NCBI RefSeq assembly: GCF_001418005.1 | Contig: NZ_LIOL01000002.1 | Span: forward strand, 366,990-430,989 | Length of the DNA: 64,000 bases | Source: Chelatococcus sambhunathii | GTDB taxonomy: Bacteria > Pseudomonadota > Alphaproteobacteria > Rhizobiales > Beijerinckiaceae | Direction: 5' to 3' | Shown here: one piece after another, positions 4,811 through 21,754 of the stretch | Layout of the letters: each line of letters opens with the position of its first letter | How positions within the stretch are numbered: position 1 is the stretch's first letter | Position numbers and translations under genes: made by a program | The notes under the pieces: generated by a model | What the model saw: the letters and a program-made list of their open reading frames with translations, nothing else | The model's database searches: none | Told to the model about the DNA's origin: nothing

Positions 4811-4824
4811 GAAAGGCAAAGCTC

Positions 4825-6210: not shown

Positions 6211-6236
6211 CCCCGATCATCGACCCCGGAGCAGAC

Positions 6237-6707: not shown

Positions 6708-6724
6708 CGAGAACCGAAGGAAGG

Positions 6725-7030
6725 ATGACAAGGATGCGCAAATTCGCGATCGCCATAATCCCGTTTCTGTCCCTGTCCCTCGCCCCTGTCCTCGCGCTGG
6801 CGCAGGCTGCCCCTGTCGACGGTCAGGTGACGAAGATCGACCCGGCGCAGAACAAGGTCACCCTCAAGCACGGCCCGATCAAGAACCTCGACATGGATGC
6901 CATGACCATGGTCTTCGTGGTGGCCGACCCCGCCATGCTCAAGACCGTCAAGGTCGGCGACAAGGTCCGGTTCGAGGCCGACCGCATCAATGGCCGCATC
7001 ACCGTCACGAAGATCGAACAGGCGAAGTGA
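6725..7030 (+). CDS. CusF-like periplasmic copper-binding protein
   Basis: Signal peptide (to about residue 26) followed by the small CusF/YdeI beta-barrel, 101 residues. The Cu(I)-binding set is recognisable in KHGPI and DMDAMTM: one His and two Met. The Trp that caps Cu(I) in E. coli CusF (sequence WPEMTM) is replaced by Met here (MDAMTM). ATG 6725 has AAGG just upstream. Last gene of the operon, followed by a hairpin terminator. Probably shuttles periplasmic Cu(I); its partner is not in the window. Confidence 0.85.
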   Translation: MTRMRKFAIAIIPFLSLSLAPVLALAQAAPVDGQVTKIDPAQNKVTLKHGPIKNLDMDAMTMVFVVADPAMLKTVKVGDKVRFEADRINGRITVTKIEQAK

Positions 7031-7040
7031 CCGCGCCATC

Positions 7041-7065
7041 AGGGGCGCTACCGGCGCGCCCCTTT
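7041..7065 (+). terminator. Putative terminator of the copper operon
   Basis: Perfect 8-bp stem AGGGGCGC / GCGCCCCT with a seven-base loop, directly followed by a short T run (7063-7065), 10 bases after the CusF-like stop codon. Confidence 0.5.
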
Positions 7066-7440
7066 CCGCGGCGAAGACGTCGTCGAGCGGATGCCGGGCG
7101 AGTGGTGTCTTTCGAGTGATCCCGAGTCGCGGGCGGCGCGACGCCTTGCGCAGTTTCAATCCGGCCGGCGAACGCTGATGGTCGCGCGTTCCCGACCGAG
7201 GCGGGGCTGGCATGGCCGCAATCGAATCCGGAGCCCCTCGTTAGTGCTCAGGCCATAGGCCATGGGTGCATCTTAAGGAGTAAACGGCACACAGATGCGC
7301 AGGAAATGTTTGAATTGGTCATACCAATCATTCCGTTGTAAAGTAGAGTTATTTTCGAACGAAAGCGACAGCATATATTTGTATTGCCTTCCATGTAACC
7401 TTCGGAAATCCTGCGCTGCCACACCGCACAGGAGGCTGCC
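7066..7440. other. Intergenic region upstream of the RTX gene
   Basis: No gene seen. The right half (about 7300-7400) is much richer in A+T than its surroundings and contains TATATT at 7374-7379, a possible -10 element, but no good -35 at 17 bases. The ribosome binding site AGGAGG of the next gene lies at its end. Confidence 0.4.
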
Positions 7441-9249: not shown

Positions 9250-9581
9250 TTCCCGGCGGGTCCGCCGGTCGGGGCACCGCGTCCTCGCGCCGGCGGAACC
9301 GGCACCTTCGTCGGCAGGGGCCGGCTGACGAGGTTCATCAGGATCTGCTCTGCCCGTCGGCCGATGGTGACCTCGCCGATCTCCGGCGTCTCGAACACCC
9401 GCTCTTCAGCCACGAGCGCGACCAGCTGGCGTGCGTTGTCGACCGTCACTTCGATGCGCCTGTAGGCCGCCACGCTCAGCGCCTGGGCCGCAATCACCTG
9501 GGCGATGAGGTCCTTGATGACGATCTTCTGTCGCATGTCCCCCTTGAAGGCCCCGTCCAGCATATTGATCGTCAACAGCAT
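9243..9581 (-). CDS. Small conserved-looking hypothetical protein
   Basis: A 112-residue soluble protein of unknown family. The core (about residues 17-90) alternates hydrophobic and charged residues with predicted helices (KDLIAQVIAAQALSVAAYRR, TIGRRAEQILMNLVSRP), and the tail is Gly/Pro-rich. ATG 9581 is preferred to GTG 9587 because GGGAGG lies 7 bases upstream. It is convergent with the RTX gene and their 3' ends overlap by 7 bases. No signal peptide or membrane segment. No function is proposed. Confidence 0.5.
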   Translation of the reverse strand: MLLTINMLDGAFKGDMRQKIVIKDLIAQVIAAQALSVAAYRRIEVTVDNARQLVALVAEERVFETPEIGEVTIGRRAEQILMNLVSRPLPTKVPVPPARGRGAPTGGPAGNQ

Positions 9582-9732
9582 TGCCACGCCTCCCGCTTGC
9601 CCGCTGACCCTAGGAGGCCGTTTTGCCGGCGGCAGAACAAGTCAAATGCGCGCCATTTTCTTTACCGAGCGGAACCGGAGCGCCGCCGCCTGAAGAAGCC
9701 GACATGGTCGGCGCATGCCGGCCCCTGTCACG

Positions 9733-9948
9733 CTAGGAGGCCAAAACGTCCTCGATGCGGACCGGCAGGTTGCGCACGGATGCCGTCGCGTGGAAGATGG
9801 CATTGGCGATGGCCGGGGCCATGCCGACGAAGGCGATCTCCCCGATCCCCTTGACCCCGGGCGGATTGACGTGCGGGTCGACCTCGTCGACGAAATGCGC
9901 TTCCAGGTGCGGGATGTCGAGGTTCACCGGCATCAGGTAGTCGGCCAT
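9733..9948 (-). pseudogene. C-terminal remnant of a molybdenum-hydroxylase large subunit (XDH/aldehyde oxidase type)
   Basis: About 71 residues match the extreme C-terminus of xanthine dehydrogenase/PaoC-type molybdopterin-binding subunits: MADYLMPVN, then DEVDPHVNPPGVKGIGEI, then MAPAIANAIFHAT and NLPVRIEDVL before the natural stop. In frame upstream there is a stop codon about 40 bases before the match, and no further homology. The remaining 600-700 residues are missing. It is not part of the Ior-type enzyme at 15560, which belongs to a different branch. A 10-base repeat CTAGGAGGCC occurs at its stop codon (9733-9742) and at 9610-9619. Confidence 0.7.
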
Positions 9949-10290
9949 GTACCCAGGATCCCTTCTGGGCGCGAGGGTCTATTGGCTGCTCGTCGGCGGT
10001 GGCGTTATCGGGGTCCTCGCCCGCGCTGCGGGCTGGTGGAGCTTGCCGAGGTGCGCCGTGCACGTCGGATGCATCGTCTGGGCGCGCGGCCCCGGCCATC
10101 TCGCCGTCCTCGTCCGGACAGGCGTGAACGTCTATATTCGCGCGGGTTGCCTCGCGATGGCCGTCGGCGTCACCGGCTCGCACGGCGCTGTCCCAGTAAG
10201 CTTCCCGGGAAGCTCCCCAGGGACATCCGGCCGAATAGGCGCCGAGCCTCGCCGCGATCAACGCTCGGCAACGGGTGACCGGAGTCCGCC
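9949..10290. other. Intergenic region between the XDH remnant and the polyketide synthase gene
   Basis: No coding signal recognised. It contains a perfect 16-base palindrome AGCTTCCCGGGAAGCT at 10199-10214, which may be a protein-binding site, and GGAG before the start at 10291. The missing upstream part of the XDH gene is not found here. Confidence 0.35.
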
Positions 10291-11337
10291 ATGGCCAATG
10301 TCAGCCTGTTGTCGACCGCCACCGCCGTCCCGCCCTACACCCTCTCCCAGGAGGAGATCGCGCGCGCCGCCTGCGAGGTCTTCGCCCCGCAGATGCCCGA
10401 CTTTGCGCCGCTCGCCGCAGTCTTCCACACGGCGGGCATCACCAAGCGCCACGTCACGCGGCCCCTCCAGTGGTTCCTCGAACCGCGCGGCTGGGCCGAG
10501 CGTAATGCGGCCTATCTCGACATGGCCTGCGACCTTTTCGTGGAAGCCGCGGCGACCGCGCTCGCGAGGGCCGGAATCACGCCACAGGATGTCGGCACCG
10601 TGGTCACCGTCTCCTCGACGGGCATCGCCACGCCCACGCTCGAGGCCCGTGTCGCCGGGCGGCTCGGGCTGCGGCCGGATATCGAACGGGTGCCACTTTT
10701 CGGTCTCGGCTGCGCCGGCGGCACCTCGGGCCTATCGGTGGCGGCACGCCTTGCCGGCTCCCGCCCCGGCGAGATCGTGCTCATGGTGACCGTCGAGCTC
10801 TGCAGCCTCGCCTTCCGGCTCGACAAGCTGACGAAGGAAAACATCGTCGCCACCGCCCTCTTCGGCGACGGGGCGGCTGCCTGCGTCCTCGCCGCGGACC
10901 GGGACGGCCTGGCTGTCATCGAGGCCTCGGGCCAGCATACCTGGCCGGACACGCTCGACATCATGGGCTGGAAGGTCGAGACGGAGGGCCTCGGGGTCAT
11001 CTTCGACCGCTCGATCCCGCCCTTCGCCGAGGAGAATGCCGCCGCCGCCATCGGTGCCGTCCTGGCGCGCGGCGGCCTGGCACTTGCGGACATCGACCGA
11101 TTCATTTGCCATCCGGGCGGCGCCAAGGTTGTCACGGCGCTCGAAGCATCCCTCGGGCTCGCTCCCGGCAGCCTCGATGCGGAGCGTGATGTCCTCGCCG
11201 ATTATGGCAACATGTCCGCCCCCACCGTCTTCTTCGTGCTGGAGCGCATCCTCGCCCGTGGCCTGCCGTCGCGCGCCGCCCTCACCTCCATGGGACCGGG
11301 CTTTTCGGCAAGCTGCGTCGCGCTGCGCGCCGCATGA
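10291..11337 (+). CDS. Type III polyketide synthase (alkylpyrone/alkylresorcinol synthase type)
   Basis: Homodimeric chalcone-synthase-fold enzyme of 348 residues that extends an acyl-CoA starter with malonyl-CoA units. The Cys-His-Asn triad is complete: Cys141 in GLGCAGG, His274 in FICHPGG, Asn307 in YGNMSAP. Length is usual for bacterial members. The start has GGAG 6 bases upstream. Its stop overlaps the start of an ICMT-like methyltransferase by 4 bases, the same pairing as Bacillus BpsA-BpsB. The likely product is therefore an alkylpyrone or phenolic lipid that is O-methylated. Starter chain length cannot be read from the sequence. Confidence 0.92.
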   Translation: MANVSLLSTATAVPPYTLSQEEIARAACEVFAPQMPDFAPLAAVFHTAGITKRHVTRPLQWFLEPRGWAERNAAYLDMACDLFVEAAATALARAGITPQDVGTVVTVSSTGIATPTLEARVAGRLGLRPDIERVPLFGLGCAGGTSGLSVAARLAGSRPGEIVLMVTVELCSLAFRLDKLTKENIVATALFGDGAAACVLAADRDGLAVIEASGQHTWPDTLDIMGWKVETEGLGVIFDRSIPPFAEENAAAAIGAVLARGGLALADIDRFICHPGGAKVVTALEASLGLAPGSLDAERDVLADYGNMSAPTVFFVLERILARGLPSRAALTSMGPGFSASCVALRAA

Positions 11338-11828
11338 CGCCGGCGATCATCATCCTCGCCCTCGTCACCGCCCAGCGGCTCGGAGAGCTCTGGCTCGCCC
11401 GGCGCAACACGCGCCGCCTCCTCGCCCGCGGCGGCCGGGAGCACGCGGCCGGCCATTATCCGCTCATCGTGCTGCTGCATGCCGCCTGGCTCGCGGGGCT
11501 CTGGTTCCTCGCCCACGACGCCCCGGTCGCACTGCCCTTGCTTGCCCTCTTCCTTGTCCTGCAGGGGCTGCGCCTCTGGATCATCGCGACGCTCGGGGAG
11601 CGATGGACGACGCGCATCATCGTCCTGCCCCCCGGGAAGCCGCTCGTCCGCTCCGGGCCCTTCCGCTTCATGGCGCATCCGAACTATGCGGTGGTCGCGG
11701 CCGAGATTGCCGTACTTCCGCTCGTCTTTGGCCTCGGCTGGTATGCGCTCGTTTTCTCGCTGCTCAACGCCGCCGTTCTCGCCATCCGCATCCGGGCCGA
11801 GAACGCCGCCCTGCGCTCGGTCGCCTGA
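11334..11828 (+). CDS. ICMT-family membrane methyltransferase, partner of the type III PKS
   Basis: A 164-residue integral membrane protein with about four hydrophobic segments. The family signature lies near the C-terminus: FRFMAHPNYAVVAAEI followed by RIRAENAAL, as in isoprenylcysteine carboxyl methyltransferases and BpsB/YpbQ. It uses S-adenosylmethionine. Translational coupling (ATGA overlap) with the PKS suggests it O-methylates the PKS lipid rather than a prenylated protein; this is inferred from the known BpsA-BpsB pair. Confidence 0.85.
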   Translation: MTPAIIILALVTAQRLGELWLARRNTRRLLARGGREHAAGHYPLIVLLHAAWLAGLWFLAHDAPVALPLLALFLVLQGLRLWIIATLGERWTTRIIVLPPGKPLVRSGPFRFMAHPNYAVVAAEIAVLPLVFGLGWYALVFSLLNAAVLAIRIRAENAALRSVA

Positions 11829-11839
11829 CGGCGGCTGCC

Positions 11840-13261
11840 TCAGCCGACCCGCGGCAGGCTGATGACCGCCCTGAGACCGCGCTGGCGGTTGGTGAGCACG
11901 ACGTCACCGCCGTGATGGCGGGCGATGGCGCGGGCGATCGACAGGCCGAGGCCGACCCCGCCCGTCTCGCGGTTGCGCGAGCGCTCCATGCGGAAGAAGG
12001 GGGCGAAGACGCGCTCGACATCCTCGCGCGGGATGCCCGGCCCGTCGTCCTCGATGACGATATCGATGTTCTCGGCCGAGCGGTCGAGGTGGACACGCGC
12101 GCGCTCGCCGTAGCGGACGGCATTCTCGACGAGGTTGCGGATGGCGCGGCGCAGGGCGTCGGGCCGGCAGCGATAGCGGATCCGCGCGCCGTCGACGAAG
12201 GTGACGTCCTGGCCAAGCTCGGCGAGGTCGTCGCACAGGCTTTCCACCAGCGCCGAGAGATCGACCGTGCGCGTCGCCTCGACGGTCGCCTCCTCGCGGG
12301 CGAAGGCGAGCGTCGCCTCCGTCATGGTCTGCATCTCGCCGATCGTGTTCAGCATCTTCTCCTGCACCTCGGTGTCGGAGACGAATTCGGCGCGCAGCCT
12401 GAGCGACGTGAGAGGCGTGCGCAGGTCGTGGCCGATGGCCGCGAGCATGCGCGTGCGATCCTCGACGAAGCGCTGCAGGCGCTCCTGCATGCGGTTGAAG
12501 GCAACCGCCGTCTGGCGGATGTCGTCCGGCCCGGATTCCGGCAGCGGCGGCACGGATTCCCCGCGCCCGAGAGCCTCCGCCGCAACGGCGAGCCGGCGCA
12601 TCGGCCGGGCGATGCCGCGCGCGACGAACATCGCGATGATCGACAGCACGCCGGCGGTGATGGCGAGCGAGACCATCGATTGCGAGGTCCAGATCGAGCC
12701 CGGCATGGCCTTGGCGTAGGCCGCGTTGAGCCAGGTGCCGGTATCGAGCCCCACGGCAAGCCCCATGCCATTGCCGTCGTCGAAATAGAGAAACTTCGCC
12801 GGCCGCGACAGTGGCCACGCATGGGCCGGCAGGTTGACCCAGGGGCCCGGCGCGTCTGCGGCGATGGCGGCGATGTTGCCCGCCCTCGCCTCCTCGACGC
12901 CTTGCGGCGCCGGCAGCGCCTTCGGGCGGCGCATCAGTGTCGGCAAGGGCGTGGCGAGCCGCACCTGCGCGTCGCGCTGCCAAGCGAGCGTGTCCGCCGG
13001 CTCGTCGCCCGAGATCCAGAAGCGCGTATAGGCCGTGGCGCTGGCGCTCAGGATATCGTCCTTGAGCGAAGCGGGCGTTGCCTCGAGCACGCGGGCGAGC
13101 GAGGCGGCACGGCTCAGGAACTCGCTCTTGGCCGCGGCCTTCAGCGCCTGGCTGCGCTCGTCCCAGGAGATCAGGAAGCCGATCCCCTGCGACAAGGCGA
13201 GCGCCAGCAGCATCAGGACGATGATCTGGGCAGCGAGGCTGCGCGCCCACAAGCGGCTCAT
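11840..13261 (-). CDS. EnvZ-like sensor histidine kinase
   Basis: Inner-membrane sensor of 473 residues. Transmembrane segments at about 10-32 and 193-214 enclose a periplasmic sensor of about 160 residues; a HAMP region follows (RPMRRLAVAAEALGRG). The HisKA box AAIGHDLRTPL carries the phosphorylated His278, and the ATPase domain has the N box (NLVENAVRYGE) and G boxes (DDGPGIP, GVGLGLSIA). ATG 13261 is chosen because it overlaps the response regulator stop by 4 bases; the longer frame is unlikely. It forms a kinase-regulator pair next to and divergent from the cytochrome/ior/sox genes. The signal is unknown. Confidence 0.93.
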   Translation of the reverse strand: MSRLWARSLAAQIIVLMLLALALSQGIGFLISWDERSQALKAAAKSEFLSRAASLARVLEATPASLKDDILSASATAYTRFWISGDEPADTLAWQRDAQVRLATPLPTLMRRPKALPAPQGVEEARAGNIAAIAADAPGPWVNLPAHAWPLSRPAKFLYFDDGNGMGLAVGLDTGTWLNAAYAKAMPGSIWTSQSMVSLAITAGVLSIIAMFVARGIARPMRRLAVAAEALGRGESVPPLPESGPDDIRQTAVAFNRMQERLQRFVEDRTRMLAAIGHDLRTPLTSLRLRAEFVSDTEVQEKMLNTIGEMQTMTEATLAFAREEATVEATRTVDLSALVESLCDDLAELGQDVTFVDGARIRYRCRPDALRRAIRNLVENAVRYGERARVHLDRSAENIDIVIEDDGPGIPREDVERVFAPFFRMERSRNRETGGVGLGLSIARAIARHHGGDVVLTNRQRGLRAVISLPRVG

Positions 13262-13980
13262 GCCTCCTCCACTTCGGCGGCGAAACTGTAGCCGCCCCCC
13301 CAATGGGTCTTGATCAGCATAGGGTTCTTCGGATCGGCCTCGATCTTCTTGCGCAGGCGGCTGACCTGGTTGTCGATGCTGCGGTCGAAGCTCTCCGCGG
13401 CGCGTCCCACGGTGAGGTCGAGCAGCTGGTCACGGCTCAAGACCATGCCGACATGATCGAGAAAAGCCTTGAGCAGGCGGAACTCGGCCGTGCTCAGGGC
13501 GACCGCGACGCCATCCTCGCCCACGATCTCTCGCCGGCCGACGTTGAGGACCCACCGGTCGAAACGGAGCGTGCGCGCCTGCAACCGGTCGCGCCGCTGC
13601 GGCGGCAGGCTGTTGACGCGCCGCAGCACCGCCTTGATGCGGGCGAGCAGCTCGCGCGGGTTGAACGGCTTCGTCAGATAGTCGTCGGCGCCGATCTCGA
13701 GGCCGATGATGCGGTCCGTCTCCTCTGCCATGGCCGTGAGGAGGATGATCGGCAGGTCGGTGGTGCTGCGTAGATGCCGGCAGACGCTGAGCCCGTCCTC
13801 GCCCGGCATCATGATGTCGAGCACGACAAGATCCGGCGCGCCGCGTTCGAGCAGCCGGCGCAGCGCAGTCGCGTTCTCGGCCACGCTGATGCGATAGCCG
13901 TGCTGGGCGAGGTACTTGCCGACGAGATCACGGATGTCGCGATGGTCGTCGACGACGGCGATGTGCGGTGTCGGTTCCAT
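13258..13980 (-). CDS. OmpR/PhoB-family response regulator
   Basis: A 240-residue DNA-binding regulator. The receiver domain has acidic residues VVDDH (9-13), phospho-acceptor Asp55 in LVVLDIMMPG, and the LTKPF lysine. The C-terminal winged helix (about 145-235) ends with the typical TAEFRLL, SFDRSIDNQVSRLRKKIE and GGGYSFA motifs. Start ATG 13980 fits the family; the frame runs 96 codons further upstream but those have no homology. It is cotranscribed with the kinase. Upstream at 14037 lies a GTAAC-N5-GTACC repeat that may be its own operator, and a similar site precedes the gene at 14836. Confidence 0.93.
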   Translation of the reverse strand: MEPTPHIAVVDDHRDIRDLVGKYLAQHGYRISVAENATALRRLLERGAPDLVVLDIMMPGEDGLSVCRHLRSTTDLPIILLTAMAEETDRIIGLEIGADDYLTKPFNPRELLARIKAVLRRVNSLPPQRRDRLQARTLRFDRWVLNVGRREIVGEDGVAVALSTAEFRLLKAFLDHVGMVLSRDQLLDLTVGRAAESFDRSIDNQVSRLRKKIEADPKNPMLIKTHWGGGYSFAAEVEEA

Positions 13981-14036
13981 GGAGCGCTCCACGCCCCCTA
14001 GATACGTTAGCCGGCTGCTGCCGCGCTCGAAAAAAG

Positions 14037-14052
14037 TGTAACAGAATGTACC
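14037..14052. promoter_or_regulatory. Candidate OmpR-type direct repeat upstream of the response regulator
   Basis: TGTAACAGAATGTACC contains GTAAC-N5-GTACC, a 10-bp-period direct repeat as bound by OmpR/PhoB-family dimers. It is 57 bases upstream of the response regulator start. A near copy (TGTAACGGAATGTGTC) stands at 14719-14734. Assignment to this regulator is inference from position and family. Confidence 0.4.
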
Positions 14053-14130
14053 CGCAGGCGCCCGGCAGCGGATCCGGGCCAGGCGCCGGCAGCAATCAGC
14101 CGGCACTCCGCTGTGCGTGCCGGGCAGCTC

Positions 14131-14198
14131 CTGCGACCCGTGGCCAGCGATACATTTCGCGACAAAAGGGGCGGGCCCGCGGCAAAGTTCTGCGACAA
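14131..14198 (+). promoter_or_regulatory. Copy 1 of a shared upstream element (cytochrome c gene)
   Basis: Contains CGCGACAAA (14158-14166), 16 bases, then CAAAGTTCTGCGAC (14183-14196); a further CTGCGAC is at 14131. The 14-base right element is identical to the one at 21400 and differs in one base from the one at 14781. It lies 116 bases before the start codon at 14313. Confidence 0.55.
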
Positions 14199-14312
14199 GC
14201 CCTGCCCATCCTGCGGCCATCGATCGGCGGCCGCCATCCAGTCTTTCCCTCGCGGCCGCGTCTCCCAAGCCCGGTATCCGGGCGCACCTGCATGAATCGC
14301 GAGAGGAAACGG

Positions 14313-14696
14313 ATGATCGCGCGAAGGATCGCCATCGCCACCCTTACTCCCTTTTTCCTCGTGCCGCTTCCCGCCGCGGCGCAACAGGCCGCCCCCGACG
14401 GCGAGCGGCTGTTCCGCACCCGCTGCGCCTCCTGCCACAGCACCGACCCCGGGCAGAACCGCATCGGCCCGCACCTCGCCGGCGTCCTCGGCCGCGATGC
14501 GGGCAGCATCGACGGCGCCCGCTATTCGCAGGCGCTCAAGGCGGCGGACATCGTCTGGGACGAGGCCACGCTCGACAGCTATCTCGCGGACCCGCGCGGG
14601 CGCGTGCCCGGCACCACGATGACGGTCGCCCTGCGCAACGACAGCGAGCGCGCCGCCGTCATCGCCTATCTGCGCGACCTGCCGGCGGCGAAGTGA
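14313..14696 (+). CDS. Periplasmic class I cytochrome c
   Basis: Monoheme cytochrome of 127 residues. A signal peptide (MIARRIAIATLTPFFLVPLPAAAQ) is followed by the heme site CASCH (about 40-44) and an axial Met in PGTTM; the fold resembles mitochondrial-type cytochrome c (IGPHLAGVLGR, KAADIVWDEATLDSYLADP). ATG 14313 is favoured over ATG 14292 because GAGAGG lies 6 bases before it. It is the first gene right of the two-component system and probably the electron acceptor for the molybdenum hydroxylase or Sox enzymes encoded next to it; that pairing is inference. Confidence 0.9.
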   Translation: MIARRIAIATLTPFFLVPLPAAAQQAAPDGERLFRTRCASCHSTDPGQNRIGPHLAGVLGRDAGSIDGARYSQALKAADIVWDEATLDSYLADPRGRVPGTTMTVALRNDSERAAVIAYLRDLPAAK

Positions 14697-14718
14697 ACCC
14701 GCGAACGCGGCCGCTGAA

Positions 14719-14734
14719 TGTAACGGAATGTGTC
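14719..14734. promoter_or_regulatory. Second GTAAC-type direct repeat, upstream of the ior/sox genes
   Basis: TGTAACGGAATGTGTC contains GTAAC-N5-GTGTC and matches the site at 14037-14052 in 13 of 16 positions. It begins 22 bases after the cytochrome stop codon and 102 bases before the small gene at 14836, so it could place the operon under the adjacent response regulator. Confidence 0.4.
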
Positions 14735-14760
14735 GAGGAGCCCATTCCGTGACAGGCCGC

Positions 14761-14795
14761 GACAAAGCCGTCGGCAGAGACAACGTTCTGCGACA
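14761..14795 (+). promoter_or_regulatory. Copy 2 of the shared upstream element (small secreted protein / ior-sox operon)
   Basis: CGCGACAAA ends at 14766, then 14 bases, then CAACGTTCTGCGACA at 14781-14795. It ends 40 bases before the start codon at 14836. The two parts are 2 bases closer than in the other copies. Confidence 0.55.
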
Positions 14796-14835
14796 GCTGC
14801 GCCCTAGGCTTCTCTCGTCAACCCTGGAGGAACCC

Positions 14836-15000
14836 ATGATGAAGCACATCGCAGCGGCTGTCGCCGCCCTCGGGCTCGCCGCCTTCGCCACCGGAGCCCT
14901 TGCCCAGGGGCAGGGCTGCGCCTGGCAGGCGTCCGCCGGCGTGGACAAGGAGGCGCCGGCCCAGTCCGCCGCGGCCTCCACGGCCGACAAGAAGAGCTGA
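14836..15000 (+). CDS. Small secreted protein with one cysteine
   Basis: A 54-residue product. [23 protein letters not shown] is a clear signal peptide, leaving about 31 mature residues (starting near GQGCAWQ) that are Ala/Ser/Lys-rich with a single Cys. No family recognised. GGAGG stands 5 bases before ATG 14836, and the shared 14-nt element is 40 bases upstream, so expression is likely. It is followed by a 12-bp perfect hairpin and then the ior/sox operon. It could be a periplasmic accessory peptide or a leader gene; function unknown. Confidence 0.6.
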
Positions 15001-15010
15001 TCGCGGCTCG

Positions 15011-15047
15011 GCCGGCACGCGCTTGTCGCCCACCGGCGCGTGCCGGC
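15011..15047 (+). other. Strong hairpin between the small secreted gene and the ior operon
   Basis: Perfect 12-bp inverted repeat GCCGGCACGCGC / GCGCGTGCCGGC with a 13-base loop, 10 bases after the small gene's stop codon. There is no T run, so it may be an RNA-stabilising or partial attenuation element that sets the ratio of the small gene to the downstream operon, rather than a full terminator. Confidence 0.55.
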
Positions 15048-15080
15048 GCCCTCCGCCCTTTCGCCCGAAGGAGTTCCTCC

Positions 15081-15548
15081 ATGGCCCGCCTGACCATCAA
15101 CGGCACTCAGCGTGACATCGACGTCGAGCCCGATACGCCCCTGCTCTGGGTGTTGAGGGAACAGGCCGGGCTGACCGGCACCAAATACGGCTGCGGCGTT
15201 GCCCAGTGCGGCGCCTGCACGGTCCATATCGACGGCGTCGCCACCCGCTCCTGCGTCATGCCGGTGAGCGCGATCGAGCCCGAGCAGCAGATCGTCACCA
15301 TCGAGGGCCTGTCTCCCGACGGCTCGCACCCCGTGCAGAAGGCCTGGCTCGCCCTCGACGTGCCGCAGTGCGGCTACTGCCAGGCGGGCATGATCATGGC
15401 CGCCGCCTCGCTCATCGCCCAGAACCCGAGCCCGACCGACGCCGACATCGACGCCGAGATCACCAACATCTGCCGCTGTGGCACCTACAACCGCGTGCGG
15501 GCCGCCATCAAGGCCGCGGCCGACGGCAGCGCCACGAGCAACGGCTGA
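15081..15548 (+). CDS. Ior-type (2Fe-2S) small subunit of a molybdenum hydroxylase
   Basis: A 155-residue iron-sulfur subunit of the isoquinoline 1-oxidoreductase/aldehyde dehydrogenase family. Plant-type [2Fe-2S] ligands are Cys38, Cys43, Cys46 and Cys58 ([11 protein letters not shown]); the second cluster uses Cys97, Cys100, Cys131 and Cys133 ([14 protein letters not shown]). It passes electrons from the molybdenum cofactor of the large subunit to a cytochrome. ATG 15081 has GAAGGAG. It has no signal and is presumably exported as a complex with the Tat-signal large subunit 11 bases downstream. Substrate unknown. Confidence 0.93.
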
Positions 15549-15559
15549 GGAGGCGAACC

Positions 15560-17725
15560 ATGACGATCGTTCAGAGCGTATCGCGCCGCAATTTCCTCGT
15601 CGGCTCTGCGGCCGCCCTCGGGGGCCTTTCCCTCGGCTTCCACCTGCCCCTACCCGGCAAAGCGCTCGCCGCCGACGCCGCGCCCGAGATCAACGCCTGG
15701 GTGGTGGTGAAGCCGGACGAGACCGTGGTGATCCGCATCGCCCGCTCAGAGATGGGCCAGGGCACCCTCACCGGCCTCGCCCAGCTCGTCGCCGAGGAGC
15801 TCGATTGCGACTGGGCGCGGGTGACCACCGAATATCCGACGCCCGGCGAGAACCTCGCCCGCAGCCGCGTCTGGGGCAACTTCTCGACCGGCGGCAGCCG
15901 GGGCATCCGGGAATCGCACGACTACGTGCGCCAGGGCGGCGCCGCCGCCCGGCAGATGCTGATCGCCGCCGCAGCCGCCGACTGGGGCGTGCCGGCCGGC
16001 GAATGCACGACCGACAAGGGCACCATCACCCATGCCGCGAGCGGCCGCTCGACCACCTACGGCAAGGTGGCGGACGCGGCCGGCCGCATGACGCCTCCCG
16101 CCGAGGTGACGCTGAAGGACCCGAAGGACTGGACCATCGCCGGCCAGCCGCTGCCGCGGCTCGACACGGCCGACAAGCTGACCGGCAAGCAGATCTACGG
16201 CACCGATCTCCAGCTCGACGGCATGCTGAACGCCGCCATCAAGGCCTGCCCGGTCTTCGGTGGCAAAGTCCAGAGCTTCGACGCGGCGGCCGTCGCCGAC
16301 ATGCCCGGCGTGCGCAAGGTGGTGCAGGTTGGCGAGACCGCGCTCGCTGTCGTCGCCGACACCTGGTGGCGCGCCAAGACGGCGCTCGACGCCCTGCCGA
16401 TCGTCTGGGACGAGGGCCCGAACACGGGCGTCACCAGCGCCACCATCGCCGCCATGCTCGAAGAGGGGCTCGATGCGGACGAGGCCTTTATCGGCCACCA
16501 GCGCGGCAATGCGCGCGAGGCGCTTGCCGGCGCGGCGCGAATGGTCTCGGCCGTCTATGGCTTCCCCTACCAGAACCACGCGACCATGGAGCCGATGAAC
16601 GCCACGGCTCTCTACACCCCCGAGAAATGCGAGGTGTGGGTGCCGACGCAGAACGGCGAGGCGAGCCTCGCCGCGGCGGCCGAGGCCTCCGGCCTGCCGG
16701 TCAACCAGTGCGAGGTCTACAAGATCCACCTCGGCGGCGGCTTCGGCCGGCGCGGCATGCAGGACTACGTCACGCAGGTCGTCCACATCGCCAAGGAGTT
16801 CCCCGGCACGCCGGTGAAGCTCATCTGGTCGCGCGAGGAGGACATGCTGCAGGGGCGCTACCACCCCGTCACGCAGGGCAGGCTCACCGGCGCGCTCGAT
16901 GCCGATGGCAATCTGACAGCGCTGCACATGCGCATCTCGGGCCAATCGATCCTGGCGGCCGTCATGCCCCAGCGCATGCAGGACGGTATGGATCCGCTCA
17001 TCTTCCAGGGGCTCACGGTCGACAGCCCGGAAGGGCATCTCGGCTACACCATCCCGAACCTGCTCATCGACCACGCCATGCGCAACCCGCCGGTGCCACC
17101 CGGCTTCTGGCGGGGCGTCAACCTGAACCAGAACGCCATCTACCTCGAATGCTTCCTCGACGAACTCGCCCATGCGGCGGGGCAGGACCCCCTCGCCTTC
17201 CGCCGCAAGCTGATGGCGAACCATCCGAAGCATCTCGCCGTGCTCAATGCGGTGGCCGAGCGCATCGGCTGGGATGAGCCGGCGCCCGAGGGTCGCCACC
17301 GCGGCCTTGCCCAGATCATGGGCTTCGGCAGCTATGTGGCGGCGGCGGCGGAGGTCTCGGTCACGGACGGCCGGCTCAGGATCCATCGCATCGTCGCGGC
17401 GACCGATCCCGGCCACGCCGTCAATCCGGCCCAGATCGAGCGCCAGGTCGAAGGCTCCTTCGTCTACGGCCTCTCGGCCTGCCTCTATGGCGAATGTACC
17501 GTGAACGGCGGACGCATCGAGCAGGAGAACTTCGACACCTACGAGGTGATGCGCATGGCAGACATGCCGGCGGTGGAGACCATCGTCATGCCCTCCGGCG
17601 GTTTCTGGGGCGGCGTCGGCGAGCCGACGATCGCGGTCGCCGCGCCGGCCGTGCTCAACGCCATCTTCGCGGCCACAGGCAAGCGCATCCGCCAGTTGCC
17701 GCTGAAGAACCACTCGCTCGTGTGA
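15560..17725 (+). CDS. Ior-type molybdopterin-binding large subunit
   Basis: Molybdenum hydroxylase large subunit of 721 residues. A Tat signal (VSRRNFLVGSAAALGG, about 7-22) makes it periplasmic. Family motifs: SEMGQGTLTGLAQLVAEEL near the N-terminus, GNFSTGGSRG, QNHATMEPMNATA, GGGFGRRG in the middle, PPGFWRG, and the C-terminal GGFWGGVGEPT, where xanthine dehydrogenases carry the catalytic Glu. Members hydroxylate N-heterocycles or oxidise aldehydes and lack a FAD subunit, handing electrons to cytochromes. It shares an operon with flavocytochrome c and Sox genes (3-base gap to the next cytochrome), an unusual partnership; its substrate cannot be read from the sequence. Confidence 0.92.
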   Translation: MTIVQSVSRRNFLVGSAAALGGLSLGFHLPLPGKALAADAAPEINAWVVVKPDETVVIRIARSEMGQGTLTGLAQLVAEELDCDWARVTTEYPTPGENLARSRVWGNFSTGGSRGIRESHDYVRQGGAAARQMLIAAAAADWGVPAGECTTDKGTITHAASGRSTTYGKVADAAGRMTPPAEVTLKDPKDWTIAGQPLPRLDTADKLTGKQIYGTDLQLDGMLNAAIKACPVFGGKVQSFDAAAVADMPGVRKVVQVGETALAVVADTWWRAKTALDALPIVWDEGPNTGVTSATIAAMLEEGLDADEAFIGHQRGNAREALAGAARMVSAVYGFPYQNHATMEPMNATALYTPEKCEVWVPTQNGEASLAAAAEASGLPVNQCEVYKIHLGGGFGRRGMQDYVTQVVHIAKEFPGTPVKLIWSREEDMLQGRYHPVTQGRLTGALDADGNLTALHMRISGQSILAAVMPQRMQDGMDPLIFQGLTVDSPEGHLGYTIPNLLIDHAMRNPPVPPGFWRGVNLNQNAIYLECFLDELAHAAGQDPLAFRRKLMANHPKHLAVLNAVAERIGWDEPAPEGRHRGLAQIMGFGSYVAAAAEVSVTDGRLRIHRIVAATDPGHAVNPAQIERQVEGSFVYGLSACLYGECTVNGGRIEQENFDTYEVMRMADMPAVETIVMPSGGFWGGVGEPTIAVAAPAVLNAIFAATGKRIRQLPLKNHSLV

Positions 17726-17728
17726 GCG

Positions 17729-18055
17729 GTGGCGTCCGTGGCCACCACGCGCCATCGCCGCCTGATGCGTGGAGGGCTTGCCCTCCTCGCCGCCCTCTGG
17801 GCCGCAAGCCCCCACGCGGCCCAGAGGGCGCCGCTGCCGGCACCGGCCGGCGCCACCGCCTGTTCGGGCTGCCACGCGCCCGCGGGCAACGGCCCGGTCC
17901 CGGGCCTTGCCGGCCGGCCCGCCGCCGAGATCGCGGACGCCATGGCGGCCTTCCGCAACGGCGAGCGGCCGGCCACCGTCATGGATCGAATTGCGAAGGG
18001 CTTTTCGGATGAGGAAGCGCGCGCCATCGCCGAGTGGATCGCGGCCGGGCCTTAG
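17729..18055 (+). CDS. fccA: FccA-like cytochrome c subunit of sulfide dehydrogenase
   Basis: A 108-residue monoheme cytochrome. After a hydrophobic leader (GGLALLAALWAASPHAA) comes the heme site CSGCH and a C-terminal RPATVMDRIAKGFSDEEARAIAEWIA segment whose Met is the axial ligand; this ending is characteristic of flavocytochrome c cytochrome subunits. GTG 17729 is taken as start; ATG 17765 is possible, and neither has a good ribosome binding site, suggesting coupling to the upstream gene (3-base gap). It overlaps the flavoprotein gene by 47 bases. It accepts electrons from FccB in the periplasm. Confidence 0.8.
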   Translation: MASVATTRHRRLMRGGLALLAALWAASPHAAQRAPLPAPAGATACSGCHAPAGNGPVPGLAGRPAAEIADAMAAFRNGERPATVMDRIAKGFSDEEARAIAEWIAAGP

Positions 18056-19319
18056 CACGCTCAGCCGCAGGACCGTTGTGGCCGGGCTCGCCACCGGCGC
18101 TGCCGCGCTCGCGGCCCCGCGCGTTCTCGCCCAGGCCCCGCCCCATGTGGCCGTCGTCGGCGGCGGCTTCGCGGGGGCGAGCGCGGCCCGTGCGCTGAAA
18201 CGGCAGGGCGCGGATATCCGCGTCACGCTCGTCGAACCCAAGGCCCGCTACACCGCCTGTCCATTCAGCAACGCCGTCCTCGCCGGCCTGCGCGACCTCG
18301 ACGCCCAGTATTTCGGCTATGACGGCATGAAGCGCGACGGCATCGACGTCGTTGCCGCGAGCGCAACCGCGATCGATGCCGAAGCCCGCCGGCTGCGGCT
18401 CGACGACGGTTCCGGCCTCGCCTTCGACCGCCTCATCCTCGCGCCCGGCATCGACCTGATGCTCGACGCGATCCCCGGCTATGGCGCCTCGGGCGCGGAG
18501 GTGATGCCGCATGCCTGGCAGGCTGGTGAGCAGACGGCGCTGCTGCGCCGGCAGCTCGAAGCCATGGACGACGGCGGCCTCGTCGTCATCGCGGCGCCGG
18601 CCAATCCGTTCCGCTGTCCGCCCGGCCCCTACGAGCGGGCGAGCCTCGTCGCCCATTACCTGAAGGCGCACAAGCCACGCTCCAAGCTCCTCATCCTCGA
18701 CGCCAAGGATAGCTTCTCCAAGCAGCGCCTCTTCGAGGAGGCCTGGGAGCAGCTCTATCCGGGCCTGATCGAATGGGTCTCGCTGTCCTTCGGCGGCCGG
18801 GTGACGGAGGTCGACGCCGCAACGAAGACGCTGACGACCGAGTTCGGCAGCCACCAGGCGGCCGTCGCCAACGTCATCCCGCCCCAGCGCGCCGGCGCCA
18901 TCGCCGCGGCCGCCGGCGTCGCCGACCGCACCGGCTGGTGCCCGATCGATTCCGTCACCTTCGAATCCCGGCTCCGGCCCGGCATCCACGTCATCGGCGA
19001 TGCGGCCATCGCCGGCGCCATGCCGAAATCCGCCTTCTCGGCCAATGCCCAGGCCAAGGCCTGCGCCGCTGCCGTTGCCACCTTGCTTGCGGGCGGGCAG
19101 CCGGCTGCGCCGAAGCTCATCAACACCTGCTACAGCCTCGCCGCGCCCGACTACGGCATCTCCATCGCCGGCGTCTACGAGCCGCGCGAGGGCCTTCTCG
19201 CCGAAGTCGCGGGCGCCGGCGGCGTGAGCCCGCTCGATGCCTCCGCCGATGTCCGCGCCAGCGAGGCGGCCTATGCGGAAGCCTGGTTCGACACCATCAC
19301 GGGCGAAGTCTTCGGATGA
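18009..19319 (+). CDS. fccB: Sulfide dehydrogenase (flavocytochrome c) flavoprotein subunit
   Basis: FAD protein of 436 residues, oxidising sulfide or polysulfide in the periplasm. A Tat signal (LSRRTVVAGLATGAAALA) precedes the Rossmann motif VVGGGFAG (about 49-56). Family-specific sequences are present: CPFSNAVLAGL, FRCPPGPYER with Cys203, NVIPPQRAG, and NTCYSL with Cys374; the two cysteines match the redox-active disulfide of the Allochromatium enzyme. ATG 18009 lies inside the fccA reading frame but is needed to include the Tat arginines, and GAAGGGC precedes it. The gene overlaps soxX by 4 bases. Confidence 0.92.
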   Translation: MRKRAPSPSGSRPGLSTLSRRTVVAGLATGAAALAAPRVLAQAPPHVAVVGGGFAGASAARALKRQGADIRVTLVEPKARYTACPFSNAVLAGLRDLDAQYFGYDGMKRDGIDVVAASATAIDAEARRLRLDDGSGLAFDRLILAPGIDLMLDAIPGYGASGAEVMPHAWQAGEQTALLRRQLEAMDDGGLVVIAAPANPFRCPPGPYERASLVAHYLKAHKPRSKLLILDAKDSFSKQRLFEEAWEQLYPGLIEWVSLSFGGRVTEVDAATKTLTTEFGSHQAAVANVIPPQRAGAIAAAAGVADRTGWCPIDSVTFESRLRPGIHVIGDAAIAGAMPKSAFSANAQAKACAAAVATLLAGGQPAAPKLINTCYSLAAPDYGISIAGVYEPREGLLAEVAGAGGVSPLDASADVRASEAAYAEAWFDTITGEVFG

Positions 19320-19756
19320 GGTGGTGGAACGGCCTCTGCGTGCTTGCGATGCTCGCCCCCTCTGCGGCGGCCGAGCCGCTGCGGCCCTACGTGGTGGAGG
19401 GGGACGCCATCACCCGCTCCCTCACCGGCCGCCCCGGCGATGCGGAGAACGGCCGGCGCCTCGTCATGGACCGGCACAGGAGCCTGTGCGTGCTCTGCCA
19501 TGCCGCTCCCCTGCCCGATCCGCACCTGCAGGGAACCCTGGCGCCGGCGCTCGCCGGCGCCGGCAGCCGCCTGAGCGAAGGGCAGATCCGCCTGCGCATC
19601 GTCGACATGAAACGGCTCGTCCCCGACAGCATCATGCCGGCCTATTATCGCACCGACGGACTCACGCGGGTCGCCGCCTCGTTCCGCGACCGGCCGATCC
19701 TGACGGCCGAGGAGATCGAGGACGTCGTCGCCTTCCTCGTCACGCTGAAGGAGTGA
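19316..19756 (+). CDS. soxX: SoxX, monoheme cytochrome c of the SoxAX complex
   Basis: A 146-residue protein. Signal peptide to about residue 19, heme site CVLCH (58-62), and axial Met107 in DSIMPAYY. The sequence between (LAPALAGAGSRLSEGQIRLRIVD) fits SoxX. With SoxA it forms the cytochrome that conjugates thiosulfate to the SoxY cysteine in the standard Sox pathway. Start overlaps fccB (ATGA) and a 3-base gap separates it from soxY, so translation is coupled. Confidence 0.92.
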   Translation: MRWWNGLCVLAMLAPSAAAEPLRPYVVEGDAITRSLTGRPGDAENGRRLVMDRHRSLCVLCHAAPLPDPHLQGTLAPALAGAGSRLSEGQIRLRIVDMKRLVPDSIMPAYYRTDGLTRVAASFRDRPILTAEEIEDVVAFLVTLKE

Positions 19757-19759
19757 GCC

Positions 19760-20233
19760 ATGCGGGACAAAGCGACCACCAGCGGCCTCCGCCGGCGCGA
19801 TCTCGTCGCCGGCAGTGCCGTGCTGGCCCTGACGCTCGTCGCGCCGCGCGCTGCCCGCGCCCGCCCGACGCTGGAGGAGGCCATCCGCACCTTCACCGGC
19901 GGTGCCGACGTGAAGACTGGGCGGGTGCAGCTCGCGGTGCCGCCGCTCGTCGAGAACGGCAATGCGGTCGGTCTCTCGGTCAAGGTCGAGAGCCCGATGA
20001 GCGAGACCGACCACGTGCGGCGCATCGCCCTGTTCAACGAGAAGAACCCGCAGGCGGATGTCGCGGTGTTCCACATCGGCCCACGGACGGGGCGAGCCGA
20101 AGTCGCCACGCGCATCCGCCTCGCCACCTCCCAGACCGTGGCGGCCATCGCCGAGATGAGCGACGGCAGCTTCTGGTCGCATCGCGCCGACGTGATCGTG
20201 ACGTTGGCGGCCTGCGTCGAGGACCTCCTATGA
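19760..20233 (+). CDS. soxY: SoxY sulfur-carrier subunit with an atypical C-terminal arm
   Basis: Sox carrier protein of 157 residues with a Tat leader (RRRDLVAGSAVLAL) and the SoxY immunoglobulin-like domain (PPLVENGNAVGLSVKVESPM, FHIGPRTGRAEVATRIRLATSQTV). Normal SoxY ends in GGCGG, the flexible arm whose Cys carries the sulfur intermediate. Here the protein ends TLAACVEDLL: Cys152 is in the expected place but the flanking glycines are lost and four residues (EDLL) extend the tail. GAAGGAG precedes ATG 19760, and the end overlaps soxZ by 4 bases. The carrier may accept another substrate or partner; this is inference. Confidence 0.9.
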   Translation: MRDKATTSGLRRRDLVAGSAVLALTLVAPRAARARPTLEEAIRTFTGGADVKTGRVQLAVPPLVENGNAVGLSVKVESPMSETDHVRRIALFNEKNPQADVAVFHIGPRTGRAEVATRIRLATSQTVAAIAEMSDGSFWSHRADVIVTLAACVEDLL

Positions 20234-20550
20234 CCCGCGCCCTCATCAATGCGCCGAAGACGGCGCGCCGCGGCGAGATCGTCGAGATCCGCGCCATGCT
20301 CGCCCATCCGATGGAGACCGGCTTCCGCACGGGCACCATGGGCAAGGCGATCCCGCGCGATATCATCAACCGCTTCGTCTGCACCTGGAACGGCGAGGAG
20401 ATCTTCTCCGCCGACCTCTTCCCCGCGATCGCGGCCAATCCCTATCTCGCCTTCACCGCGGTTGCGACCGAGAGCGGCACCATCGCCTTCGCCTGGACCG
20501 GCGATGACGGCGAGACGCGCACGGCCGAGACGGAGATCACGGTGACATGA
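20230..20550 (+). CDS. soxZ: SoxZ, partner subunit of the SoxYZ carrier
   Basis: A 106-residue protein of usual SoxZ length without a signal peptide; it is exported bound to SoxY. Family features include the start RALINAPKTARRGEIVEIRAMLAHPMETGFR, IPRDIINRF, and the ending FAWTGDDGET..TAETEITV. It forms the heterodimer that presents the SoxY cysteine to Sox enzymes. Overlaps of 4 bases with soxY and with soxA show tight coupling. Confidence 0.93.
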   Translation: MTRALINAPKTARRGEIVEIRAMLAHPMETGFRTGTMGKAIPRDIINRFVCTWNGEEIFSADLFPAIAANPYLAFTAVATESGTIAFAWTGDDGETRTAETEITVT

Positions 20551-21329
20551 CGGGGCGCGCGCCGCGTCTCCTCGTCGGCCTCCTTGCCGCCTGCCTTGCC
20601 GGCTCCTCGGCGCCCGCCGGCGACATGGTCGACAAGCGCTCGGGCGCCGACTTCATGAGCCCCGAGAACCGCGCCATGCAGGCGGACGACATGAGCAATC
20701 CCGGCATGTTCGCCGTCCTCGACGGGGAACAGCTGTGGAACCGCCCGGAAGGCGCGAACGGGCGCAGCTGCGCCGGCTGCCACGGCGAGGCGGCGACAAG
20801 CATGCGCGGCGTCGCCGCCCGCTACCCTGCGTTCGACGAAAGAAGCGAACGCCCCATCGACCTTGCCGGCCGCATCGGCGAGTGCCGCCGGACGCGGCAG
20901 GAGGCATCGCCCCTGCCGCACGAGAGCCCGGAACTCATCGCGCTGACGGCCTATGTCGCCCACCAGTCGCGCGGCATGCCGATCAGCCCGCCGCAGGACG
21001 AGCGGCTGGCCCCGTTCCGCGACAACGGCCGCCGGCTCTACGAACGGCGCATCGGCCAGCTCGACCTCTCCTGCGCCTCCTGCCACGACGCGCGCTCGGG
21101 CGAGCGGCTCGGCGGCAGCGTCATGCCCCAGGGCCACCCGACGGCCTATCCGCTCTACCGGCTGGAATGGCAGGCCGTCGGCTCCCTGCAGCGGCGCCTG
21201 CGCAACTGTATGATCGGCGTGCGCGCGGAAGCCTTCGCCTTCGGCGCGCCGGAGATCGTCGAGCTCGAGCTCTATCTCATGGAGCGCGCGGCGGGCCTGC
21301 CCCTGGAGACGCCGGGCGTGCGCCCCTGA
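20547..21329 (+). CDS. soxA: SoxA, diheme cytochrome c of the SoxAX complex
   Basis: A 260-residue periplasmic cytochrome with signal peptide (to about residue 24). Two heme sites are present, CAGCH (75-79) and CASCH (176-180), so this is the diheme form. Cys221 in RNCMIGVRAE is the conserved thiolate ligand and active-site cysteine. It would transfer sulfur to the SoxY cysteine with SoxX. Last gene of the coupled ior-fcc-sox operon: soxB and soxCD, normally next to these genes, are not in this window. Confidence 0.93.
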   Translation: MTGRAPRLLVGLLAACLAGSSAPAGDMVDKRSGADFMSPENRAMQADDMSNPGMFAVLDGEQLWNRPEGANGRSCAGCHGEAATSMRGVAARYPAFDERSERPIDLAGRIGECRRTRQEASPLPHESPELIALTAYVAHQSRGMPISPPQDERLAPFRDNGRRLYERRIGQLDLSCASCHDARSGERLGGSVMPQGHPTAYPLYRLEWQAVGSLQRRLRNCMIGVRAEAFAFGAPEIVELELYLMERAAGLPLETPGVRP

Positions 21330-21377
21330 GGAAATGTTTGTCGAGATGTCGCAAGCCCGGGAGCCGACACGTCCTGT

Positions 21378-21413
21378 GACAAAATCGGCCCCTGACGGGC
21401 AAAGTTCTGCGAC
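21378..21413 (+). promoter_or_regulatory. Copy 3 of the shared upstream element (membrane peptide gene)
   Basis: GACAAA (21378-21383), 16 bases, then CAAAGTTCTGCGAC (21400-21413), identical in the right part to the copy before 14313. ATGTCGCAAG just upstream (21346-21355) is a further inverted partial match. It ends 44 bases before the start codon at 21458. Confidence 0.55.
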
Positions 21414-21457
21414 GGCAGGCGCCGACAATGCGGCCGCTTCATCACCGAGGAGCCGTC

Positions 21458-21754
21458 ATGAGCAGCCGCCTGCCCTTTCACGACGACGAGGCGTTCGCGA
21501 GCTGGTCCGAGATCAGCGACCATCTCGCCGCCAATCCCGTCGACACCGTGCTCAACACGCTCGTTCTCCTCAGCGTCGCCGTCCTCTTCGTCGTTGGTCT
21601 CTTCGCGGGCCCCAAGAGCGACTGGAGCCCGGCCCACGCGGAGCCGGCGAGCTTCTTCGGCCCCGCCAAGACCGACGAGAGCTGGCGGCCGGCGCCGAAC
21701 AAGCAGGAACTCCTGTCATGGTCGTGCGAGGGCCGGTCCCCGCTCACGATCTGA
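21458..21754 (+). CDS. Small single-span membrane protein linked to the sox operon
   Basis: A 98-residue protein. An acidic N-terminal third (LPFHDDEAFASWSEISDHLAANP) precedes one strongly hydrophobic segment (about 31-50, TLVLLSVAVLFVVGLFAG) and a polar Pro-rich tail. No family recognised. GAGGAGCC lies before ATG 21458, and the shared element copy 3 is 44 bases upstream, tying it to the cytochrome/ior/sox regulon. It could be a membrane tether for one of the cytochromes; this is speculation. Confidence 0.55.
   Translation: MSSRLPFHDDEAFASWSEISDHLAANPVDTVLNTLVLLSVAVLFVVGLFAGPKSDWSPAHAEPASFFGPAKTDESWRPAPNKQELLSWSCEGRSPLTI

Follow-up and report, generated by a model that had tools for sequence, protein, structure and literature searches.

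In a 64,000-nucleotide stretch of the Chelatococcus sambhunathii genome (contig NZ_LIOL01000002.1, positions 366,990 to 430,989; hereafter the window), open reading frames and profile matches delineate eight genes, iorA-iorB-fccA-fccB-soxX-soxY-soxZ-soxA, which lie head to tail on one strand between positions 15081 and 21329. Our comparison of this operon with its relatives suggests that a variant of the Sox carrier, with a molybdenum hydroxylase (IorAB) as its partner, serves an as yet undescribed route for the conversion of sulfur compounds bound to the carrier in many proteobacteria. The C-terminal arm of the SoxY carrier is AAC(I/V)E-like and not GGCGG, a feature overlooked in an earlier note on this DNA.

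The eight gene identities and the tight spacing described in that note are borne out by the profile matches and by measurement of the junctions. The genes iorA and iorB are 11 bases apart and soxX and soxY 3, and fccB-soxX, soxY-soxZ and soxZ-soxA each overlap by 4. The gap between iorB and fccA is 3 bases with the GTG start of fccA or 39 with its ATG start, and fccA and fccB overlap by 47 on the assumption that fccB begins at ATG 18009, the closest standard start codon retaining the twin-arginine motif. The position that the note had assigned to the molybdenum hydroxylase, the usual place of soxCD, did not hold, as iorAB lies upstream of fccAB and not downstream of soxA.

IorB falls within the xanthine-oxidase family (IorB type) by its MoCoBD domains, its partner with two [2Fe-2S] clusters and a glutamate at E688, as judged from profiles, alignment and structure. 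E688, which we take to be the active-site glutamate of molybdenum hydroxylases, is retained together with R9/R10 in 16 of 16 aligned sequences. The predicted structure of IorB (mean predicted local distance difference test score, pLDDT, of 78) finds its best fold match in 8gy3_C (template-modelling score 0.82, 28% identity, 729 alignment columns), which is also the nearest solved structure by sequence. By its entry title, 8gy3 is the membrane-bound aldehyde dehydrogenase of Gluconobacter; the fold is alike, but the window IorB has sox genes as partners. In the window, SoxX and SoxA correspond to the SoxXA of canonical Sox systems, exceeding the cut-offs of TIGR04485 and TIGR04484 and keeping the haem motifs and the third SoxA cysteine. 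These residues, the MP motif of SoxX and the arm cysteine of SoxY are identical among the aligned sequences (SoxA 20, SoxX 17, SoxY 20), as are the IorA cysteines in 7 and the two FccB cysteine motifs in 13. FccB has both FCSD domains and the cysteine pair of a flavocytochrome c sulfide dehydrogenase.

The window operon thus resembles the canonical Sox system (SoxXA-SoxYZ-SoxB-SoxCD) in that SoxX, SoxZ and SoxA score over their curated cut-offs and the carrier cysteine stands on the C-terminal arm of SoxY, but it is without SoxB, SoxC or a GGCGG arm and has a xanthine-oxidase-family molybdoenzyme instead. The absence of soxB and soxC from the window, already claimed in the earlier note, was confirmed by searches with one reference protein each (best E-values, that is, expectation values, of 3.3 and 0.46; soxD was not searched). 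In the whole genome, which is 100% complete, the sole match to the SoxB model reaches 118 bits against a cut-off of 550, and 10 of 14 control genomes, including E. coli, likewise give matches to this model below the cut-off. SoxC has no match in the whole genome (soxD again not searched), and TIGR04487, the family of the window SoxY, has one only. A soxB or soxC hidden elsewhere in the genome was rejected on these profile searches, and the soxB/soxCD set that the earlier note had named as evidence against its own reading did not turn up, in so far as soxB and soxC are concerned.

Coupling of IorAB with sox genes in related genomes

A 16-locus IorB alignment was used to collect relatives from named genomes, and the best 80 of at least 585 were retained, so that the counts describe the behaviour of the closest IorBs. 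The genera include Mesorhizobium, Ancylobacter, Azospirillum, Bosea, Bradyrhizobium, Methylobacterium, Microvirga, Duganella, Massilia and Methylibium, mostly Alpha- and Betaproteobacteria. In 71 of the 80 loci soxX, soxY and soxZ adjoin the member of the IorB subfamily; gene by gene, soxX is found in 71, soxZ in 71, soxA in 70, iorA in 79, fccB in 48 and fccA in 39, and soxY was counted in 72, L091 contributing only a weak match at a distance. Of the nine loci in which soxX is missing, six reach the end of the contig within about 1 kb of iorB, and the remaining three (L067, L071 and L134) truly do not have it. No SoxB or SoxC match above 150 bits was seen in the retrieved flanks of the 80 loci. 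FccAB, which the earlier note had counted as a partner, is not a constant one, as the fccB count indicates.

A survey of 289 genomes of the same class returned 16 over the TIGR04487 cut-off, and in 13 of these iorB stands beside the sox genes; G093 and G071 are cut by contig ends, and G091 has fccAB and no iorAB at that place. Across this survey iorAB adjoins soxXYZA in at least 13 families, in the order iorA-iorB-(fccA-fccB)-soxX-soxY-soxZ-soxA, with fccAB missing between iorB and soxX in six loci (L035, L036, L037, L038, L041 and L050). Class-wide scoring of up to three IorB candidates per genome sets the subfamily apart, 22 genomes reaching at least 1182 bits and the next 913. The gene lies beside soxY in 17 of the 22; G093, G071 and G127 have broken or unresolved contigs, G091 carries it elsewhere, and G066 has soxXA only. 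The G066 locus (L179, G066 C1:2347001-2367000, positions 7848-11912) is the sole case seen of IorAB directly before soxX-soxA without soxYZ.

None of 22 control IorB loci outside the Sox-linked lineages had a match to soxX, soxY, soxZ, soxA or soxB. These controls were chosen by hand, and not blind, from below the score gap and from places not already known to lie beside SoxY; four of them have less than 2.2 kb downstream, and five below-gap IorB places do adjoin SoxY (G078 twice, G087, G125 and G229), these being the separate lineages of the trees described below. One control locus (L193) has a 109-bit match to the SoxC superfamily, and a rough CxxCH scan places cytochrome genes beside 5 of the 22, which says little. 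A chance neighbourhood was rejected in view of the 71 coupled loci, the controls without soxX, soxY, soxZ, soxA or soxB matches and the arm and flank data; the ior genes are not chance neighbours in one genome only, an outcome that the earlier note had listed against itself.

In a record named Luteimonas suaedae, a gammaproteobacterium, the operon occupies positions 10001-16500 of locus L073 and its IorB is sister to the window IorB, a case of recent transfer or contamination.

The SoxY arm and its partner enzyme

Against the true-SoxY model TIGR04488 the window SoxY scores 102 bits, under the cut-off of 125; by score it is a member of NCBIfam TIGR04487, 'SoxY-related AACIE arm protein', so that a family name already exists, and its own sequence there is AACVE. 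Its C-terminus reads VTLAACVEDLL as opposed to VTIGGCGG, the cysteine being retained and the flexible glycines gone. The operon SoxYs of the 71 coupled relative loci have AAC (59), SAC (7) or PAC (5) arms. In canonical systems the GG arm of SoxY has a role in reaching into SoxB, and the loss of the glycines fits a freedom from the need to enter that enzyme.

Sixty-five of the 87 SoxY matches of the class survey were classified, all of at least 75 bits, the 22 below 75 bits being left out, and labels for arm, SoxB and IorB were assigned by hand from locus readings and SoxB positions. SoxB lies within about 6 kb of 25 of 32 GG arms and of 0 of 33 non-GG arms, where some non-GG loci have short flanks (G200b, for example, on a 4.3 kb contig) and where the absence for G125, G229, G191, G286 and G075 was judged at the locus only. 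At loci with enough flank, IorB is near 26 of 30 non-GG arms and 0 of 25 GG arms, three contig-edge rows (G093, G071 and G127) and seven short-locus rows having been omitted; if G127, whose contig breaks off after about 2.4 kb without an iorB, is counted as a miss, the former value becomes 26 of 31. What emerges is an arm rule, GGC with SoxB and [A/S/P/G]AC with IorAB, by which the arm predicts the partner.

At the level of genomes, SoxB exceeds its cut-off in 4 of 23 cluster-bearing genomes, which were picked for holding the cluster, against 21 of 27 comparison genomes (p = 4e-5, uncorrected for relatedness). Four comparison genomes also hold an Ior-linked non-GG SoxY, G128 and G078 without SoxB and G087 and G200 with SoxB beside a GGCGG SoxY; once these four are moved, SoxB is present in 6 of 27 against 19 of 23. 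Since the survey genomes are not phylogenetically independent, Fisher p-values overstate certainty, and the trees are the check. In the four SoxB-positive cluster genomes SoxB stands on another contig, beside a GGCGG SoxY.

Among 50 named genomes, SoxB is over its cut-off in 20, all of which have at least two TIGR04487 matches; every operon-type SoxY read in these 20 has an [A/S]AC arm (21 of 21) and every second SoxY read has GGCGG (9 of 9, eight beside soxB). These SoxB genomes keep a second SoxY, with GGCGG wherever it was read, so that the two systems can coexist and stay distinct. SoxC is over its cut-off in 5 of 24 relatives, namely four SoxB genomes plus G078, where two SoxC genes occur in a genome without SoxB (SoxD was not searched). 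No SoxB over cut-off was found in Mesorhizobium muleiense, Ancylobacter aquaticus, Microvirga massiliensis, Duganella rivi and Azorhizobium oxalatiphilum, genomes whose completeness is not given. The systematic absence of soxB, for which the earlier note had proposed a test, thus stands at the locus, as the 80 flanks and the 33 non-GG arms attest, and fails genome-wide, with SoxB elsewhere in 20 of the 50 and 4 of the 23 genomes.

In a SoxYZ tree computed without the arm, the Ior-linked G125/G229 join a GG/SoxB group with support 100, apart from the main AAC/Ior clade, on a long stem and with weak deep nodes; G087/G200 form another branch, whose deep nodes are weak too. In the IorB tree, the main Sox-linked clade does not include G125/G229 and G078/G091b, from which unlinked IorBs separate it, and G087/G200/G011 are sister to that clade with support 100, the IorB of G200 (L181) stopping at a contig end and its link to SoxY being taken from G087. 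Read together, the two trees suggest at least two, and probably three, separate recruitments of IorAB to non-GG SoxYZ.

Some further arms deserve mention. At L169, L172 and L174 (G191, G286 and G075) a GACS-arm SoxY stands beside SoxXA, with FccAB too in two of them, and with neither SoxB nor IorAB nearby. The SoxYs of L154, L151, L157 and L168 (G203, G274, G231 and G035) end in GGCST, GGCGAG, GGCGS or GGCIT, and no SoxB lies within the retrieved stretch. Locus L165 (G078 C18, positions 1357-12691) has two tandem IorAB pairs and a GAC-arm SoxY with a long extra tail past the cysteine, followed by FccAB and SoxXA.

Proposed mechanism and alternative explanations

These data lead us to propose, with confidence evenly balanced for and against, a periplasmic carrier pathway independent of SoxB and SoxCD, in which IorAB would oxidise a SoxY-bound adduct and pass the electrons to c-type cytochromes. 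Given the conservation of SoxXA and SoxYZ, SoxXA would attach a reduced sulfur compound oxidatively to SoxY at its one arm cysteine. IorAB, which carries a twin-arginine export signal, would recognise the altered arm, in which [A/S/P/G]AC and a short, frequently acidic tail stand in place of GGCGG, and would use an oxygen atom from water to oxidise the adduct on the carrier. From molybdenum the electrons are expected to pass by way of two [2Fe-2S] clusters to c-type cytochromes, which may be SoxXA, FccA or a soluble one, and finally to reach a terminal oxidase. FccAB, in part of the loci, would handle the sulfide/sulfane side, where it may supply or consume sulfane sulfur. As substrate candidates, inorganic (thiosulfate, polysulfide) and organosulfur compounds both fit. 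The earlier note had SoxYZ carry an intermediate for the molybdoenzyme or FccAB; the coupling is systematic, soxB and soxC are absent from the C. sambhunathii genome, and the comparative evidence points to a SoxYZ-borne substrate of the molybdoenzyme. The wider claim of a distinct protein-carrier sulfur metabolism, where a molybdenum hydroxylase works on a SoxY-held substrate and arm and partner (SoxB or IorAB) have been switched together more than once, is one we advance tentatively, at slightly less than even confidence.

Several points weigh against this pathway. The known substrates of the xanthine-oxidase family are C-H compounds or CO, so that acting on a group bound to sulfur would be a novel chemistry for it. 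In G066, a one-contig genome, IorAB is followed by soxX and soxA without soxYZ and there is no SoxY match genome-wide, so that IorAB may act without a carrier there; at L067, L071 and L134 IorAB is present in flanks without sox genes, and in G091 the subfamily IorAB and the AAC sox genes are at separate places. G191, G286 and G075 have a non-GG arm of the G125 type with neither IorB nor SoxB nearby, and the arm change is thus possible without the enzyme. In addition, pairwise distances of IorB against those of the Sox proteins give rho values of 0.32-0.42, and those of IorA 0.14-0.38, against 0.66-0.72 for soxY, soxZ and soxA mutually; a correlation so moderate was not taken as support.

These exceptions and moderate distances leave room for IorAB to act on a free substrate. 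IorAB and Sox would then be merely co-regulated, for instance in response to sulfide together with aldehydes or heterocycles, IorAB oxidising a free molecule and SoxXA/FccA being just its electron acceptors. The closest solved relative of IorB is an aldehyde dehydrogenase (8gy3), and the IorAB-SoxXA arrangement of G066 and the sox-less L067, L071 and L134 agree with such an activity; it leaves unexplained, however, why the SoxY arm should change where IorAB is found and SoxB is not, in non-sister SoxYZ lineages, and we regard it as rather unlikely. Carrier-bound oxidation could also, as a chemical sub-case of the proposed pathway, take place on the carbon side. SoxYZ would hold an organosulfur or thiol-aldehyde adduct (a one-carbon or heterocyclic thiol), and IorAB would hydroxylate the carbon next to the sulfur so that a carbonyl product is released and a persulfide is left for FccAB; we consider this sub-case unlikely. 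Such a chemistry suits molybdenum hydroxylases. Other divergent SoxYZ adjoin alcohol, methanol and formate dehydrogenases, as described in a recent survey (PMC11237559). Yet no carbon-metabolism gene is conserved beside the operon, and methanethiol oxidase (PF05694) shows no excess of co-occurrence (2 of 24 genomes against 17 of 265, p = 0.66, one test), a null result upon which a methanethiol link through this enzyme was dropped.

Two other explanations would deprive IorAB of part or all of this role. Another hydrolase encoded elsewhere, SoxH-like or a relative of 5'-nucleotidase, might replace SoxB, leaving an ordinary thiosulfate oxidation in which IorAB replaces SoxCD only. That survey cites SoxH as reported to compensate for a missing SoxB in Sulfurimonas CVO (PMC11237559), and the C. 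sambhunathii genome has its 118-bit match to the SoxB superfamily; matches of this sub-cut-off kind are nevertheless found in the 10 control genomes mentioned above, and no hydrolase gene is conserved beside the operon (SoxH was not searched for), which makes this explanation quite improbable in our judgement. A degenerate Sox cluster, with soxB and soxCD lost, the rest decaying and iorAB brought alongside by drift, would account for the absence of soxB and soxC, but it is contradicted by conservation, as the active-site motifs are kept and iorAB stands beside soxXYZA in the 13 or more survey families and the 71 relative loci; we find it scarcely credible.

Surroundings of the operon, related systems and significance

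The coordinates of the operon and its neighbours are collected in Table 1. A cytochrome like that encoded at 14313, the candidate electron acceptor of the earlier note, occurs near the operon in 13 of the 80 relative loci, on either strand. Besides the window, 15 of the 80 have both a response regulator and a histidine kinase of these families, so that the two-component system may sense the substrate. No further conserved enzyme was seen beside the operon in the 80 loci, the next commonest neighbours being the two-component system and a cytochrome (9 loci). An ATP-binding-cassette ATPase-like family present in 20 loci was taken as noise, its positions being scattered. Neither Pfam nor the 80 relative loci gave any match to the frame at 21458-21754.

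Table 1. Genes of the Ior-Sox operon and neighbouring genes, in window coordinates
Feature	Position	Strand	Profile or remark
iorA, molybdenum hydroxylase subunit with two [2Fe-2S] clusters, no signal peptide seen	15081..15548	+	Fer2 + Fer2_2
iorB, molybdenum-cofactor subunit, twin-arginine signal	15560..17725	+	MoCoBD_1/2; E688 within GVGEPT motif
fccA-like monohaem cytochrome c	17729..18055 (GTG 17729 or ATG 17765 start)	+	Cytochrome_CBB3
fccB, flavocytochrome c sulfide dehydrogenase flavoprotein, twin-arginine motif	18009..19319, start uncertain	+	FCSD_central + FCSD-flav_bind (PF21706, PF09242)
soxX, monohaem cytochrome	19316..19756	+	TIGR04485 70.5 bits, cut-off 61
soxY, AACIE-arm type carrier	19760..20233	+	TIGR04487 215 bits, cut-off 172
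soxZ, carrier partner	20230..20550	+	TIGR04490 90 bits, cut-off 76
soxA, dihaem cytochrome with conserved third cysteine	20547..21329	+	TIGR04484 226 bits, cut-off 110
Secreted monohaem cytochrome c (c550-like), optional neighbour	14313..14696	+	upstream of operon
Small secreted protein, no family match	14839..15000	+	not among matches in 80 relative loci
OmpR-type response regulator, divergent from operon	13258..14268, true start uncertain	-	Pfam Response_reg, Trans_reg_C
Sensor histidine kinase, probable regulator	11840..13303	-	Pfam HAMP, HisKA, HATPase_c

Farther from the operon, Pfam matches identify, at 10291-11828 of the window, a gene for a type III polyketide synthase and, after it, one resembling isoprenylcysteine methyltransferase, a pair associated with alkylresorcinol or alkylpyrone synthesis. 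At 7441-9249 a 602-residue protein is made up of repeats-in-toxin (RTX) calcium-binding nonapeptide repeats, and the opposite strand there has an open frame of 564 residues.

With respect to known systems, we found no relevant paper on the AACIE SoxY in the literature searched, and no described link of it to a molybdenum hydroxylase was seen. A parallel is provided by SoxYZ-S2 and SoxYZ-S4, altered-arm carriers tied to a non-Sox oxidoreductase (pyrroloquinoline quinone alcohol, methanol or formate dehydrogenases) in the survey cited above (PMC11237559); these are SoxYZ fusions, whereas the window system has separate SoxY and SoxZ and keeps SoxXA. That 2024 survey of SoxY reports variants beside alcohol, methanol and formate dehydrogenases and discarded sequences without GGC, so that the AAC type lay outside its view (PMC11237559). 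Flavocytochrome c sulfide dehydrogenase is a known system in its own right, and the window fccAB shares its operon with ior and sox and is optional in the relatives.

In Bradyrhizobium diazoefficiens, soxY2 is reported to be dispensable for thiosulfate oxidation (PMC5748708); this soxY2 may be of the AAC type. Complete sox clusters are described for several Bosea strains, including B. lupini, in another report (PMC5894208), and B. lupini also carries the Ior-Sox system (L086). A further study, on SAR324, raised the possibility of a novel mechanism where flavocytochrome c lies next to soxYZ (PMC4782131). No description of the Ior-Sox pairing was found in the open-licence PubMed Central literature, subscription papers being mostly outside this scope, which is hence no proof of absence.

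As far as annotation is concerned, SoxB commonly serves as the marker for sulfur oxidation of the Sox type. By its gene names the operon amounts to a 'partial Sox' cluster plus an 'isoquinoline 1-oxidoreductase', so that annotation may take the trait for thiosulfate oxidation and fail to recognise a separate pathway. The arm rule, in turn, offers a simple and testable code for which enzyme acts on the carrier. The named hosts in which SoxB is not found make the system directly testable. If the proposed pathway is true, IorAB would be, to our knowledge, the first molybdenum hydroxylase known to act on a protein-bound sulfur adduct, and an organosulfur substrate may be served by it in common soil, plant-associated and freshwater bacteria.

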